Assembly: GCA_021810625.1 (NCBI GenBank) | Contig: JAJZIJ010000013.1 | Location: forward strand, 1-64,000 | Length of the DNA stretch: 64,000 bases | Source: Acidobacteriota bacterium | GTDB taxonomy: Bacteria > Acidobacteriota > Terriglobia > Terriglobales > Acidobacteriaceae | Reading direction: 5' to 3' | Program-made: the position numbers and the translations under genes | Shown: positions 15,404 to 64,000 of the stretch, piece after piece | Numbering within the stretch: position 1 is the stretch's first letter | Layout: each line of letters opens with the position of its first letter | The notes under the pieces: generated by a model | Seen by the model: the letters and a program-made list of their open reading frames with translations, nothing else | What the model was told of the DNA's origin: nothing | Database searches by the model: none

Positions 15404-18400
15404 CTATTGCGTAACGGTAAGGTTGAGATGGACGGTTTGGGTCATTCCTCCCGATGCTGGAACCGACTGCACGGTCACATTCGAGATGGCTGCGGGCGTG
15501 GGGCCAAAGAAGCCGCCGTGACATCCAGAGACCCCCGCCGCCAACGCTCCCGTTAGCAGCACCAGCAGGCAGAGTTGCAACATTCGCTGCCGCGTCTTCG
15601 AGAGATTCTTCCTGCGCCCAAAGGCCGCCAGTCCGGCCATGCTTCCCGGCCACCAGAAGGCCAGCGCCGGAAGAATTGGACTCACCGGGCTGGATGGGCT
15701 TTGTGGCCCGAATGGACTGGGCATCGCCTGCATCCGCGCCAACGGCGGCGCTGTCGCCGCGTTGGTCTCAATATTCAGCGGTACCGTGACCACAGTATTG
15801 CTGCCATCCAGCGTCACCGTGGTGCTCTGCGCCCCGTTCGGGAAGACGCAGTATGCGCTGGACGGCAGGTTGAGACAGTTCAGCGTGAGCGTGTTGGCGT
15901 AGCCCCCCGTGGGCGTGATGGTCAGCGTCGTGTTGCCCGTCTGTCCTGCCACGATGGTCAGCGCGGTTGGGGCGGGCGGAACCACGGTCAGCGTGTAGCT
16001 GGGCAACACGGTGGGGGTGGCCGTGCCGATGCCGTTCAGGATCACGGACTGCACATTGTTGGGCGCGACTGCGTTCAAATTGTTGTCGGTGATGTTCACC
16101 GTGCCCGTCAGCGGCCCCGCAATGAGAGGTTCAAACTCCACGCCCAGGCCGCAGATTGCGCTCGGATTCAGCGTCGTTGTATCCGTGCAGGTGGTGCCTG
16201 ATCCGTTCAGGTTGAAGCTGCTGATTGTTTGCCCGGTCGTCGTCGTATCCAGCGGTGGCGCAAAGATAAGCGGAGCATTGCCGATGTTTTGCAGTGTCAC
16301 CATTTGCTGTGGGCTGGTTGTGCCCACAAGGTAGGTGTGTGGGCCGAAGTTTACCGCCGCCCATTGCTGCGTCCGAGTGATCTTCGCCGCGAGGTTATTG
16401 CCGGGATCCGTGATGTAGATATCCCCCGCTCCATCCACCGCCACGCCAACGAAATTGACATGGCTTCCTGTTGTGCCCACCGTCGTCTGTATCCCGCTGG
16501 GTGTTACCTCCACCACTTGGTGGTTGTATGTATCCGTGATGTAGACATCCCCCGCAGTATCCACCGCCACGTCATCAGGACTCAGGCCGATCGAAACCAT
16601 CGTCTGCGTGCCGCTGGGCGTTACCTTCAGCACGCGACCGGGCTCCGTGATGTAGACATTCCTCGCTGCATCCACTGCCACGTCGTTGGGTTGATACAGG
16701 CCGCTGGCAGGCACAGTGGTCTGCGTCCCGCTGGGTGTCACCTCCACCACGTCGTTGTTGCCGGAGTCTACGATGTAGAGATCCCCCGCGCCATCCACCG
16801 CCACGCCATCGGGAACATTCAGGCCGCTCACAGGTACGGTCGTCTGCGTCCCCTCTGGCGTTACCTTCAGTATGTGGCCGTACGCGGGCTCCGAGATATA
16901 GACATTCCCCGCTGCATCCACTGCCACGTCGTCGGGAGAACTCAGTCCGGTTCCGACCGTTGTCTGCGTGCCGCTGGGCGTTACCTTCACCACGCGGTTG
17001 TTGAGCGTATCCACAATGTAAGTATTTCCCGCTGCATCCACCGCCACGCCATCGGGATCGTTTAGTCCAGTCGCAACCACCGTCTGCTCGCCGGGCAGGA
17101 AGACATCCAGCGGGCCGGTTCCGATGCCCACCAACCCAACGGTGCCGACGAGGGTGCTGCCGTTGTTGACCATCAACTCCCCGGTGCGCTGGCCGGGATA
17201 CTGCGGGCTAAAGGTAATGGGCACGGTGCAGACCGTGTCTACAGCATTGACGCTGGTTCCATCGGTTACGCAGCCCGTCACTGCGCCGACGGTAAACTCC
17301 TGCACGCCATTCTGTGCCTTGGGCACGGTGATGCTGGTGATCGCGCTGGCTGCCGTCAACTCCACAAAGATGTTCTGCGAGACAGAGGTCTTTCCCACTG
17401 ACGTTGCCGGGAAGGTCGAGTTGACGCTCACCTTCCGTATGACATTGTTGCTGTAGTCCGCGATGTAGAGATTGCCTGCGCTGTCCACGGCCACGCCCAG
17501 GGGAGTGTTCAACTCGGCGATGGTGGCCGCTCCTCCATTTCCGGTGTAACCCGGCGTACCATCTCCCGCCACTGTGCTGATGATCCCTGATCCCGCCGTC
17601 ACCATGCGAATGCGATTGTTGCCTTGATCCGCGATGTAGAGGTTGCCTGTGCTGTCCACGGCCACGCCATAGGGATAGTCCAACATGGCGCTGGTGGCCG
17701 GGATATTATCTCCGTTGTAGCCAGCCGTGCCCGTGCCCGCCACCGTGCTGATGATCCCTGATCCCGTCGTCACCATGCGGATGCGACTGTTGCCTTGATC
17801 CGCGATATAGAGGTTGCCCGCGCCGATGATTGCCACGTCATAGGGAGCGTACAACTCGGCGTTGGTGGCCAGGACATTATCTCCGTTGTAGCCAGCCGTG
17901 CCCGTGCCCGCAACGGTGTAGATGTCTCCAGCCGTCGTGCTGAGCGTCCCTCCGAACATTGTCCCCGTCGTTGCCGCCACCATGCGGATGCGTTCGTTGC
18001 CGGAATCCGCGATGTAGAGATTGCCCGCGCTGTCCAATGCCAGGCCCAGGGGAAGATTCAACTTGGCGTTGGTGGCCAGGATGTTATCGCCGTTGTAGCC
18101 CTGTGCGCCATTGCCCACTACGGTGGTAATAATTCCCGTGCTCGCGCTTACCTTCCGAATGCGTTGGTTGCCGTTATCCGCGATGTAGAGATTGCCCGCG
18201 CTGTCCACCACCACGCCCTGGGGAATGGACAACTCGGCGTTGGTGGCCGGGATGTTATCCCCGTTGTAGCCCTGTGTGCCATTGCCCGCCACAGTGTAGA
18301 TATCTCCTGCTGTCACACTCTGGCCGAAGATCGTTCCTGTCGTTGCCGCCACCATGCGGATGCGTTGGTTGCTGGTATCCGTGATGTAGACGTTGCCCGC

Positions 18401-18691
18401 GTTGTCCAGCGCCACGCCAAACGGAAGATGCAGCTCGGCGCTGCTGGCTGGCCCACCATCCCCAAGGTAGCCCGCCGTGCCATTGCCCGCAAACGTGCTG
18501 ATGACGGACACCACGGCCACATTTCCCGATACGGCTTGCGCGTGGGTTGCGGGCGCGGTCAGCAGCGCAAAAAGCGCCAGCGGCAGCAACAACGCGGCGC
18601 AAAGATTTCGGCTACGGACGACAGGGCAGAGCGCGAGAATGCGTGACACAAGGATTGGCGCGGATGTAAGCGTGGATGTTGACCGGGGCAT
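15404..18691 (-). CDS. secreted double NHL beta-propeller protein with Ig-like modules
   Basis: 1095 residues. Signal sequence LCAALLLPLALFALLTAPATHAQA at about 29-52. Then six NHL repeats of the type GVAVDSAGNLYIADQGNNRIRMV (about 60-430), an Ig-like or ASH-like spacer, and six repeats of a second type ending KVTPSGTQTTV (about 545-790). An Ig-like domain with ITDNNLNAV follows, then a module AGQTGNTTLTITPTGGYANTLTLNCLNLP. The end is a hydrophobic stretch LQLCLLVLLTGALAAGVSGC followed by about 40 residues. NHL propellers bind partners or ligands; enzymatic function is not shown. GAGAGG precedes the ATG. A bacterial extracellular or outer-surface protein of unknown role. Confidence 0.85.
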   Translation of the reverse strand: MPRSTSTLTSAPILVSRILALCPVVRSRNLCAALLLPLALFALLTAPATHAQAVSGNVAVVSVISTFAGNGTAGYLGDGGPASSAELHLPFGVALDNAGNVYITDTSNQRIRMVAATTGTIFGQSVTAGDIYTVAGNGTQGYNGDNIPATNAELSIPQGVVVDSAGNLYIADNGNQRIRKVSASTGIITTVVGNGAQGYNGDNILATNAKLNLPLGLALDSAGNLYIADSGNERIRMVAATTGTMFGGTLSTTAGDIYTVAGTGTAGYNGDNVLATNAELYAPYDVAIIGAGNLYIADQGNSRIRMVTTGSGIISTVAGTGTAGYNGDNIPATSAMLDYPYGVAVDSTGNLYIADQGNNRIRMVTAGSGIISTVAGDGTPGYTGNGGAATIAELNTPLGVAVDSAGNLYIADYSNNVIRKVSVNSTFPATSVGKTSVSQNIFVELTAASAITSITVPKAQNGVQEFTVGAVTGCVTDGTSVNAVDTVCTVPITFSPQYPGQRTGELMVNNGSTLVGTVGLVGIGTGPLDVFLPGEQTVVATGLNDPDGVAVDAAGNTYIVDTLNNRVVKVTPSGTQTTVGTGLSSPDDVAVDAAGNVYISEPAYGHILKVTPEGTQTTVPVSGLNVPDGVAVDGAGDLYIVDSGNNDVVEVTPSGTQTTVPASGLYQPNDVAVDAARNVYITEPGRVLKVTPSGTQTMVSIGLSPDDVAVDTAGDVYITDTYNHQVVEVTPSGIQTTVGTTGSHVNFVGVAVDGAGDIYITDPGNNLAAKITRTQQWAAVNFGPHTYLVGTTSPQQMVTLQNIGNAPLIFAPPLDTTTTGQTISSFNLNGSGTTCTDTTTLNPSAICGLGVEFEPLIAGPLTGTVNITDNNLNAVAPNNVQSVILNGIGTATPTVLPSYTLTVVPPAPTALTIVAGQTGNTTLTITPTGGYANTLTLNCLNLPSSAYCVFPNGAQSTTVTLDGSNTVVTVPLNIETNAATAPPLARMQAMPSPFGPQSPSSPVSPILPALAFWWPGSMAGLAAFGRRKNLSKTRQRMLQLCLLVLLTGALAAGVSGCHGGFFGPTPAAISNVTVQSVPASGGMTQTVHLNLTVTQ

Positions 18692-60693: not shown

Positions 60694-63600
60694 ATGTCCA
60701 CGCCCATGCCCACGCTCTGCTCTGTCGCCCATAGGCGAAGCTTTCCCACGCAAGCCAAAAGAATGTTCCGTTCCATGACATCCTTTCCAGCCGCGCTGCT
60801 GGCGGTCTTTGCGCTGGCTGCGGCGAGCGCCCACGCCCAGAACACCTACACGGTGACCAACACGAATAGCAGCGGAACTGGCTCACTCGCCGCAGCGGTC
60901 GCGTCGGTGGATGCAGATACGGGCACGCCCGGCGACACGATTGATTTTGCCTCCAGGGTGACGGGCACCATCACGCCGGGCACGCTGACCCTGAGCAAAA
61001 ACGTGACCATCTCCGGGCCGGGCGCGAATCTGCTGACCATATCCGGCGGCGGCGCGAAGATCTTCTACATCAACTCCGGCGTTACGGCGAGCATCTCCGG
61101 GCTGACCATCGCCAACGGCAACAGCGTCAACGGCGGCGGCATTGACAACGAAGGCACATTGACGGTGAGCAACAGCACCTTCGCGGGCAATTCGGCTGGC
61201 TACATCGGCGGCGGCATTTTCAACGATGGCACATTGACGGTGAGCAACAGCACCTTCTCCGGCAACTCGGCTGGCGGCGGCGGCGGCATTGCCAACAACA
61301 ACGGCACGGTGACGGTGAGCAACAGCACCTTCTCCAACAACACGGCCAGCGGGAACAGCGGCTACGGCGGCGGCATTGTCAACGACAGCACATTGAAGGT
61401 GAGCAACAGCACCTTCTCCGGCAACACGGCCAACTCCGGCGGCGGCATATTCAACAACGGCGGCACGGTGACGCTGACCAACAGCATTGTGGCGGGCAAC
61501 ACCATCAACATAAGCGCTGCGGGCGACGACTGCGATAGCTGCGGCACGCAGAGCGCCTACAACCTCATCAGCACGCCGTCGAATATCATCAATCCGATGC
61601 TCGGCCCACTGCAATACAACGGCGGCCCCACGGAGACTATGATGCCGCTGAAGGGCAGCCCGGCCATCAACGCAGGACTCAGCAGCACGCTCTCCACCGA
61701 TCAGCGCGGATTCCCCCGGCCCACGGGCAACGGCGTGCCCAGCGATCTGGGCGCGGTGCAGGCCGGAGGCCAGGGAGACCTGATCGTGACCACCACGGCA
61801 GACACCACGAACTCCGGCACCGTGTGCGACGGCACCACCACCTGCTCCTTGCGCGATGCCATTACGCTGGCCAACAGCCAGGGTTCCGCGGATATCTCCT
61901 TTGCCCCCAGCATTACGAGTACCCCCAGCACCATTACGCTGACCAGCACGCTGCCACCCATTGCAGCCACGAATATCGCCATCAACGGGCCGGGCGCGAA
62001 TCTGCTGACCGTTTCGGGGAACAATCAATATCAGGGCTTCAACATTAACCTTGGCGTTACGGCGAGCCTCTCCGGGCTGACCATCGCCAACGGCCTCGGT
62101 AGCGGCATTGCCAACAGCGGTACGGTGACGGTGAGCAACAGCGCCTTCTCCGGCAACTCGTCTGACGATGGCGGCGGCATTGCCAACTGCAGCGGTAGCA
62201 CATTGACGGTGAGCAACAGCACCTTCTCCGGCAATACGGCTGGCTCCGGCGGCGGCGGCATTTACAACCAAGGCACGGTGACGGTGAGCAACAGCACCTT
62301 CTCCGGCAATTCGACCCCCGGCGGCGTCGGCGGCGGCATTTACAACCAAGGCACGGTGACGGTGAGCAACAGCACCTTCTCCGGCAACTCGGCCACCAGC
62401 GGCGGCGGCATTTACAACCAAGGCAAGGTGACGATCACCAACAGCATTGTGGCGGGCAACACGGAATCTGCTTCAGGACAAGCGGGCAACGACTGTGATC
62501 TGTGCGGCACGCAGAGCAAATACAATCTCATCAGCACGTCGGCTGCCCCCATTACGGCGGCGCAACTGATGCTTGGCCCGCTGGCGCTGAATGGCCCCAA
62601 CCAGACGCTGCAAACCCTGCTGCCGCTGCCGGGGAGTCCGGCGATTGAAGCGGGCAATCCCGCGCTGCTGCCATCGAGCATGAAGACGGACGAGCGCGGC
62701 AGGCCGCGCACCGTGAACAGCACGCTCGACCTGGGCGCAGTCGAGACGGATTACACTGCCGTGCAGTTCGTGCAGCAGCCGACGAACACGCTCATCAACG
62801 CGACCATCACGCCCGCAGTGACGCTGAGCGTGATGGAAAGCGGCGCGGCAGCGCTCAACATTCCTGTTCCGCTGACGCTCTCCGGCAACGGCACTCTGGC
62901 TGGAACGCTAACGGAGACGACGCTGGTGACGACGCCGGGCACGGCTGCCGTCGCCACCTACGGCAATCTGAGCGTGAATGCGGCGGGCACGGGCGACACG
63001 CTGGATGTGAGCCTGCCGATTACCGCTACGGGAATCACGCCAGCGCTGACGCTGAAGGCCAGCAGCAGTTCGTTTGACATCACGTTGCAGACCACGACGA
63101 TTACCTGGACAACGACACCACCCACCAACGTGACCTACGGCGCAGCGCCAATCACGCTGGCGGCAACGGCCAGCAACGGGGCGACGGTGCTCTACCAAGT
63201 GATCACCGGCCCGGCGACGATTAGCGGCAGCACGCTCACCTTTACTGGCGCGGGCGCGGTGACGGTGGAGGCATACACAAACGTCAGCGGCAGCTACGGC
63301 TCCGGCAGCCTGACGGCCAACATCAACGTGAACAAAGCGGCATTGTCGGTGACAGCCAACAACGCGACGCGAGTCTACGGCGCGGCCAATCCCACCTTTA
63401 CCGGAACCTACTCTGGCGCGGTGAATGGCGACACCTTTACGGTGAGCGGCTCCACCACGGCCACGACAACCAGCGCGGTTGGCACCTATCCGATCACGCC
63501 GACGGCAGCGGGCGCGAATCTCTCCGACTACACCGTGACAACCACCAACGGAACACTGACGGTGAGCGTAGCGACCTCGAAGACCACGCTGGCCGCTTCG

Positions 63601-64000
63601 GACAGCGCGGTCATCGCAGGGCAGCCCGTGACTTTTACCGCGACGGTGCAATCCGGCGCAACGCTGGTTCCCAGCGGCACGGTGAACTTCTACAACGGAA
63701 CCACGCTACTCGGCGCGCAAGCGGTGACCAATGGCGTGGCGACCTTCACCACCTCCACGCTGGCAGCGGGCGGCAATCCAGCGTTCACGGCCAGCTACAT
63801 GGGAACCGTGGATTACACCGCCAGCACCTCTGCAACGGTGATGGTGACGGTCGTTGCGCCCACGTCCGCCAGCTATGCGATGACGGCGACCCCAACTTCA
63901 TTGACGATCACACCGGGGCAGACAGGAAGCAGTTCGCTGACGATTACGCCGTCGGGCGGCTACACAGGCAAGCTGACGCTGGTTTGCGCGGGCCTTCCGG
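60694..64000 (+). CDS. giant secreted beta-helix/Ig-like protein, truncated at window end
   Basis: At least 1102 residues, open at the edge. Signal peptide MTSFPAALLAVFALAAASAHAQ, after about 27 further residues if the ATG at 60694 (GAGAGG upstream) is used; an ATG at 60763 is the alternative. Two right-handed beta-helix stretches follow, with repeats TVSNSTFSGNSA and GGGIYNQG; the second opens with GTVCDGTTTCSLRDAITLAN, a CSLREA-type motif. Then come an MBG-type Ig-like domain (YGAANPTFTGTYSGAVNGDTFTVSG) and an Ig repeat with VPSGTVNFYNGTTLLG. The visible end QTGSSSLTITPSGGYTGKLTLVC matches the C-terminal module of the NHL protein at 15.4 kb. Probably a surface protein or adhesin. Confidence 0.85.
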   Translation, partial: MSTPMPTLCSVAHRRSFPTQAKRMFRSMTSFPAALLAVFALAAASAHAQNTYTVTNTNSSGTGSLAAAVASVDADTGTPGDTIDFASRVTGTITPGTLTLSKNVTISGPGANLLTISGGGAKIFYINSGVTASISGLTIANGNSVNGGGIDNEGTLTVSNSTFAGNSAGYIGGGIFNDGTLTVSNSTFSGNSAGGGGGIANNNGTVTVSNSTFSNNTASGNSGYGGGIVNDSTLKVSNSTFSGNTANSGGGIFNNGGTVTLTNSIVAGNTINISAAGDDCDSCGTQSAYNLISTPSNIINPMLGPLQYNGGPTETMMPLKGSPAINAGLSSTLSTDQRGFPRPTGNGVPSDLGAVQAGGQGDLIVTTTADTTNSGTVCDGTTTCSLRDAITLANSQGSADISFAPSITSTPSTITLTSTLPPIAATNIAINGPGANLLTVSGNNQYQGFNINLGVTASLSGLTIANGLGSGIANSGTVTVSNSAFSGNSSDDGGGIANCSGSTLTVSNSTFSGNTAGSGGGGIYNQGTVTVSNSTFSGNSTPGGVGGGIYNQGTVTVSNSTFSGNSATSGGGIYNQGKVTITNSIVAGNTESASGQAGNDCDLCGTQSKYNLISTSAAPITAAQLMLGPLALNGPNQTLQTLLPLPGSPAIEAGNPALLPSSMKTDERGRPRTVNSTLDLGAVETDYTAVQFVQQPTNTLINATITPAVTLSVMESGAAALNIPVPLTLSGNGTLAGTLTETTLVTTPGTAAVATYGNLSVNAAGTGDTLDVSLPITATGITPALTLKASSSSFDITLQTTTITWTTTPPTNVTYGAAPITLAATASNGATVLYQVITGPATISGSTLTFTGAGAVTVEAYTNVSGSYGSGSLTANINVNKAALSVTANNATRVYGAANPTFTGTYSGAVNGDTFTVSGSTTATTTSAVGTYPITPTAAGANLSDYTVTTTNGTLTVSVATSKTTLAASDSAVIAGQPVTFTATVQSGATLVPSGTVNFYNGTTLLGAQAVTNGVATFTTSTLAAGGNPAFTASYMGTVDYTASTSATVMVTVVAPTSASYAMTATPTSLTITPGQTGSSSLTITPSGGYTGKLTLVCAGLP
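61150..62395 (+). repeat. about eight copies of a 30-bp coding repeat
   Basis: The string GGTGAGCAACAGCACCTTCT followed by CCGGCAA recurs near 61165, 61240, 61315, 61397, 62130, 62209, 62283 and 62360 with few changes, mostly in the fifteenth base and the last seven. Each codes for VSNSTFSGN. Separated by 70-80 bases within each of the two beta-helix stretches. This could promote unequal exchange. Confidence 0.75.

Follow-up and report, generated by a model that had tools for sequence, protein, structure and literature searches.

A C-terminal tail of exported-looking Acidobacteriaceae proteins as a candidate membrane anchor, with an immunoglobulin-like domain apparently split by a hairpin that ends in a lipobox-like cysteine

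The C-terminal tail analysed here is of an already known putative kind, because NCBIfam (release 20.0) names it: NF058595, invert_tail, the 'lipo-invert putative C-terminal anchoring domain'. We describe the tail in a window of 64,000 nucleotides, the whole stretch of DNA that was analysed (positions 1 to 64,000 of contig JAJZIJ010000013.1, assembly GCA_021810625.1, from an Acidobacteriaceae bacterium), where two large genes, P0001 and P0002, carry it. The NF058595 profile starts late in the first piece of the tail, omitting most of the first half of an immunoglobulin (Ig)-like domain, and covers the late strand of that piece, a hairpin, a cysteine and the last strands, and so describes the same tail. 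As far as the name of the model tells, the split-Ig anatomy reported below is an addition to NF058595. Searches of open-licence articles in PubMed Central for lipo-invert, invert_tail, inverted lipoprotein, and split immunoglobulin with lipobox found no literature on this tail.

Three further systems invite comparison. The N-terminal signal of bacterial lipoproteins, the substrate of Lgt and LspA, shares with the tail a basic stretch, a hydrophobic core and a small residue before a cysteine. The lipobox-like motif of the tail differs from it in being internal, downstream of both an exported front and an earlier transmembrane segment (TM), and the cysteine of P0002 is residue 1057 of 1095, near the C-terminus and not at the N-terminus as in a canonical lipoprotein. 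The MYXO-CTERM/myxosortase system, as described in PMC11980579, places an invariant Cys, a TM and an Arg cluster on large surface proteins, and an Lgt-like lipidation is proposed there; this terminal order of Cys-TM-Arg is unlike the TM-Arg-TM-Cys-strands of the tail. In the donor-strand complementation of chaperone-usher pili, a separate strand completes an Ig-like fold and is the analogue of the staple proposed below. This last likeness is no more than an analogy; Ig-like folds are common, and sharing one does not indicate relationship.

The initial annotation had reported a C-terminal module common to P0001 and P0002, and BLASTP bears it out with one significant match between the two proteins (residues 1060-1102 and 898-943, respectively, 26/46 identical, E 2e-9). 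The two genes are separated by 42,003 bases, in agreement with the 42 kb given earlier. The common piece is the first half of an Ig-like domain in a full tail of about 190-200 residues, in which the Ig-like first part is followed by a linker, TM1, a K/R-rich loop, TM2, G/A/S-Cys, a short linker and a last segment. In complete sister domains the last segment directly follows the first Ig part, and the membrane hairpin of the tail is inserted between predicted strands seven and eight. The two genes and the parts of their tails are as follows.

60694..64000, + strand: P0001, a secreted-looking protein; 1102 residues in the window in a stop-free frame, 3' end beyond the window (Pfam and NCBIfam scans)
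63871..64000, + strand: start of the P0001 split-Ig tail, first strands; the window end cuts the tail, with the probable continuation at C54 1-560 (L014)
15404..18691, - strand: P0002, an NHL-repeat protein with a complete tail, 1095 residues (Pfam and NCBIfam scans)
15761..16003, - strand: P0002 tail piece 1, the first seven predicted Ig-like strands, residues 897-977 (AlphaFold strands 2-80, model m97ac818c1e2f; profiles)
15620..15682, - strand: P0002 TM1 region SPILPALAFWWPGSMAGLAAF, residues 1004-1024
15584..15619, - strand: P0002 basic loop GRRKNLSKTRQR, residues 1025-1036, predicted cytoplasmic
15524..15583, - strand: P0002 TM2 MLQLCLLVLLTGALAAGVSG, residues 1037-1056, resembling a type II signal peptide core (AlphaFold helix 136-157)
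15521..15523, - strand: P0002 invariant Cys 1057 in a lipobox-like VSGC (tail alignment, Cys counts)
15407..15499, - strand: P0002 tail piece 2, the last beta hairpin of the Ig-like domain, residues 1065-1095 (AlphaFold; joined-profile tests)

The contig of the window (C57) has 64,039 bases and ends 39 bases past the window, so the earlier reader had only the first strands of the P0001 module. The last 120 bp of C57 are identical to the first 120 bp of contig C54, and the P0001 frame carried into C54 (L014) runs ...ISGCGGSSSSTPPATTMPTHNTPAGTSNVIVTATPASGGASQSVSITLTIS*, with the hydrophobic hairpin followed by ISGC and the final strands, as in P0002. The hydrophobic segment that had been anticipated past position 64,000 is present in this continuation. 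We regard the C57-C54 join as possible, the overlap being its sole support; such an overlap in a graph assembly marks a possible path and does not prove one, and since the tail is a multicopy module, another continuation of C57 is possible. L014 reaches 56.3-61.4 bits against the NF058595 cut-off of 37, a score that depends on the join, and the tails of the host genome matched a family-wide tail alignment with an hhalign probability of 100, where the two alignments share some rows. Tail modules lie at or near contig ends in C57 (window 63920-64000 to 64039), C54 (1-120), C4, C55, C45, C38, C30 and C10, and the module is apparently a repeat at which the assembly breaks.

To describe the split of the Ig-like domain, half-profiles were built from 32 aligned tails. 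In 45 tails the two halves are separated by a median of 74 residues (range 62-100). Complete Ig domains without the insert occur upstream of the tail in some tail proteins, such as L101 1293-1399, where the first half passes straight into the last hairpin (...TITINTDASTTPGTYTAAVNGASG...). Among 16 internal pairs of half-profile matches, seven stand at gaps of 1-11 residues, one overlaps by 2, and in the other eight the first profile extends into the second half, giving overlaps of 10-31. A joined profile that omitted the membrane hairpin found 23 complete domains in 6 proteins, compared with 3-7 domains for eight column-shuffled joined profiles in which the second half was shuffled. When the last 30 residues of the 23 domains were shuffled, the median loss was 16.9 bits, and the real sequence scored above all 20 shuffles in 21/23. 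Another control, with the halves reversed, gave 57 matches; it was judged uninformative because the last hairpin precedes the next domain in tandem arrays, and was replaced by column shuffling. A control profile made from the first half and the columns of the hairpin had 17 matches and gained 13 bits, which looked contrary at first, but these matches were 16 tails absent from the exclusion list and L089 949-1055. Fifteen of the 16 tails joined the cysteine count below, and L024 was excluded from it because a contig end cuts it.

These domains bear on the possibility that the tail is a common Ig-like repeat end without a sorting role. In its favour, an Ig-like domain is indeed part of the module, and some carriers have complete copies upstream; those copies, however, lack the insert, whereas the membrane hairpin and its Cys are kept on diverse fronts across the family, which makes this explanation very improbable.

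AlphaFold models of the tails of P0002 and L086 both unite the two pieces in one Ig sandwich with seven strands before the membrane hairpin and two after, so a two-sheet sandwich that includes the last beta hairpin is predicted. In the P0002 tail, strands 2-80 and 172-198 mostly have a predicted local distance difference test score (pLDDT) of 70-85, and the linker and hairpin are mostly at 39-56 (one block 67); in the L086 tail, both halves are at 82-91 (one block 67) and the hairpin is at about 40. The best Foldseek match has an E value of 2.4e-3, thus there is no close structural relative. Using VIA-align, both halves span a single Ig-like domain of 9i1y_A (Z 10.7, root-mean-square deviation (rmsd) 2.5, 109 residues) and of 2ber (Z 12.2, rmsd 2.0, 99 residues), and Caf1M/FimC chains are among the structural matches of the tail models. 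Alignments of these predicted models show fold, not function.

The cysteine after TM2 is one of two invariant columns in the alignment of 32 tails. It is present in 60/60 counted tails, 45/45 with both half-profiles and 15/15 further tails, and the Cys background outside the last 90 residues is 1.0%. P0002 (L002) and the tail on contig C29 (L133) lie outside the 60, and both have it. In the 45 tails, the residue at -1 is G in 32, A in 11 and S in 2, and the loops total 207 K/R versus 2 D/E. A PS00013-like lipobox pattern fits 52/60 tails (39/45 and 13/15).

A plain inner-membrane anchor is a rival reading: the TM hairpin alone would hold the protein, the Cys would perhaps be lipidated but never cut, and the Ig domain would be one chain. 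Two hydrophobic segments and a basic loop suffice for insertion, Ig domains tolerate loop insertions, and no dedicated peptidase was found. Such an anchor, however, leaves the Cys in 60/60 tails, the G/A/S at -1 (45/45 tabulated) and the lipobox-like end of TM2 unexplained, and we consider it unlikely. A Met stands exactly before TM2 in most tails of the host genome (KTRQR-MLQLC...), as if a separate small lipoprotein began at an internal start. This candidate was rejected as hardly credible, since most tails from other genera lack a Met at this place and every tail reads as one frame.

TM1 and its flank are strongly conserved within the host genus (SPILPALAFWWPGSMAGLAAFG), and together the linker, TM1 and the R-cluster recall the three-part organisation of PEP-CTERM, GlyGly-CTERM and MYXO-CTERM-type sorting signals. 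If the tail were such a signal, a sortase-like enzyme would cut before TM1, the front would be attached elsewhere, and TM2 and the last strands would be discarded; an invariant Cys likewise occurs in MYXO-CTERM (PMC11980579). On the other hand, TM1 is poorly conserved beyond the genus, the Cys comes after TM2 and not ahead of a terminal TM, and the last strands, which would not be needed if discarded, are conserved as Ig strands. Unlike in PEP-CTERM/exosortase systems, the host genome has 0 exosortase (PF09721) matches at E 0.01, in a search that did not extend to rhombosortase or CPBP proteases. Considering these points, a sorting signal of this type seems quite improbable. In a DNA comparison of 11 host-genome tails (L001-L003, L005, L006, L008, L009, L011, L013-L015), the hairpin is a median of 89% alike versus 68% for the Ig part before it and 60% for the last strands, and a median of 75% of the same-residue sites in the hairpin have identical codons. 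Recent spread, gene conversion or strong constraint could account for the likeness.

We propose that the tail may be a C-terminal anchoring device, in which an Ig-like domain is split by a membrane hairpin ending in an internal lipobox, and our confidence in this reading is evenly balanced. Its elements stand in the order expected for an exported protein with a prolipoprotein signal as its final TM. Following established Lgt/LspA biochemistry and the positive-inside rule, from which the topology is deduced, Sec would export the front, TM1 would cross from out to in, the basic loop would stay inside and TM2 would cross from in to out, so that the Cys would arrive on the periplasmic side, placed as in any ordinary prolipoprotein. 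There Lgt would lipidate the Cys and LspA would cut before it, reading the hairpin as an internal lipoprotein signal and leaving a short lipidated peptide that bears the last Ig hairpin. The TM hairpin could afterwards be kept, as a double inner-membrane anchor, or be removed by a second cut. A more tentative and rather doubtful extension is a non-covalent split-Ig clasp: with the lipoprotein pathway cutting inside the Ig-like domain, the lipidated last beta hairpin would dock into the unfinished domain, re-complete the fold and staple the front to a membrane. In that case, exporting the last hairpin would double as a folding checkpoint.

The initial annotation had suggested a secretion or surface-attachment signal in the common module. 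One tail on many large, exported-looking proteins, the hydrophobic segment that follows and the choice-of-anchor matches agree with this in part, but the motif it quoted is the first Ig half, and the signal-like part is the downstream Cys hairpin. If the tail is an anchor, it would mark an entire group of envelope proteins in soil bacteria that are abundant, and we did not find the display route of these proteins described. Should LspA cut within a domain, the lipoprotein pathway would be used away from the N-terminus, and the split-Ig clasp, if true, would be a new kind of attachment.

Several points weigh against the proposed anchor. P0002 scores 28.5-33.7 bits, under the NF058595 cut-off of 37, though positions 3-112 of 113 align, and the strict pattern [LVI][ASTVI][GAS]C fits only 26/45 tails. 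Most of the counted tails were chosen with a hidden Markov model (HMM) that itself contains the Cys; a query with the Ig part only is for this reason a less biased check, and among its 16 matches in the host genome the Cys is present in 15/15 that are readable into the hairpin, the sixteenth being the window's own, cut by the contig end. The 23 complete domains are not independent, as they come from 6 proteins and 10 of them from L117. The AlphaFold models were made with 8-row alignments and have a mean pLDDT of 66 (P0002 tail) and 69 (L086 tail). A TM hairpin left on the new C-terminus of the front would mean an inner-membrane hold, so a retained hairpin is at odds with simple anchoring at the outer membrane or the surface unless there is a second cut. 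The support for the anchor comes from sequence and structure prediction, and attachment, lipidation and cutting are putative.

The host genome has one LspA and two Lgt (L129 and L130, on contigs C5 and C34). A dedicated LspA was rejected, as the genome has only this one. At least two Lgt matches occur in 44/47 Acidobacteriaceae genomes versus about 96/349 others (hand count). A second Lgt as the partner of the tail was likewise dropped: G022, G115 and G202 have a single Lgt match and strong tails, and lineage alone could explain the Lgt excess.

In a sample of 396 Acidobacteriota genomes, NF058595 matches exceed the cut-off in 54, compared with 0/14 control genomes. All 47 sampled genomes of the host family, the entire Acidobacteriaceae share of the sample, have matches with a best E of 7.2e-12 or lower, and the few good matches outside it are in G208, G264 and G382 (one family) and in G391. 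With weak matches included, 205/396 genomes are reached; these were not counted because 5/14 controls give them too. Beyond Acidobacteriota the sampling consisted of the 14 control genomes and a collection of 72,556 plasmids, in which one record, from Granulicella tundricola MP5ACTX9, encodes a protein, WP_013572957.1, ending in the same layout. On the concern that the tail might be a common Ig-like fold with hits in unrelated phyla, matches over the cut-off fall mostly in one family. The other named hosts, at 7 loci, are Acidobacteriaceae metagenome-assembled genomes. The host genome has 20 matches at E 0.01, 13/20 over the cut-off, and eight nearly complete Acidobacteriaceae genomes have 5, 16, 17, 10, 20, 9, 15 and 20 at E 1e-5, of which a few are half-profile matches, probably to complete Ig domains. 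G217:C1:3802176-3802595 and similar rows match the last ~40 NF058595 positions only, twice in one frame, and are probably complete Ig domains that cross-hit NF058595, which would fit the split-Ig reading.

The tail is joined to varied heads, an outcome named beforehand as support: NHL propellers, beta-helices, TIG arrays, pro-kumamolisin peptidases, ExeM/NucH nucleases and glycoside hydrolases. Seven carriers in the host genome have NHL propellers, beta-helices, TIG arrays, Big_3_5 and MBG_2. From 40 loci taken in other genomes, the fronts of 32 carriers were scanned, and Big_3_5 was found in 11, choice_anch_D in 10, the pro-kumamolisin domain in 6, SBBP in 5 and the ExeM/NucH nuclease in 4, with singles including GH30 and a GDSL lipase; NF058595 was detected in 29/32 of these carriers at E 1e-5.

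The fronts of the two window proteins had been called unrelated. They do differ, P0001 having a beta-helix, choice_anch_Q, MBG_2 and Big_3_5 and P0002 having NHL repeats and choice_anch_D (Pfam and NCBIfam), but as a genome-wide statement the claim was too strong, because NHL, beta-helix and Big_3_5 recur among carriers. The choice-of-anchor matches, D (NF012200) in P0002 and Q (NF041518) in P0001, lie in the fronts and neighbour the tail without being part of it. The features of the fronts are as follows.

60694..60840, + strand: P0001 N-terminal leader and signal peptide, cut likely after AHA, judged by eye
61591..61761, + strand: P0001 choice-of-anchor Q (NF041518), residues 300-356, 114 bits, the best of two stretches
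62041..62466, + strand: P0001 right-handed beta-helix (PF13229), residues 450-591, best stretch, E 3.1e-13
63343..63561, + strand: P0001 MBG_2 domain (PF18676), residues 884-956, E 2.4e-20
63592..63852, + strand: P0001 Big_3_5 Ig-like domain (PF16640), residues 967-1053, E 2.4e-16
16079..16405, - strand: P0002 choice-of-anchor D (NF012200), residues 763-871, best stretch, E 7.9e-11, 42.4 bits, under the cut-off of 45

By eye, both P0001 and P0002 have a signal-peptide-like N-terminus ending in AHA-Q or THA-Q. The same GAGAGG stands upstream of both ATG codons (9 nt in P0001 and 8 nt in P0002), as first noted, and is an ordinary Shine-Dalgarno-like site. The P0001 leader (60694-60840) has 91% identity over 43 residues with the leader of a tail protein on contig C53, and related leaders, SVVRRQSFPTQAKRRLEWG, occur in other large frames of the host genome (contigs C53, C55, C11, C35 and C66). 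Many small frames also match short stretches of the leader, as would be seen if a dispersed DNA repeat lay across these gene starts.

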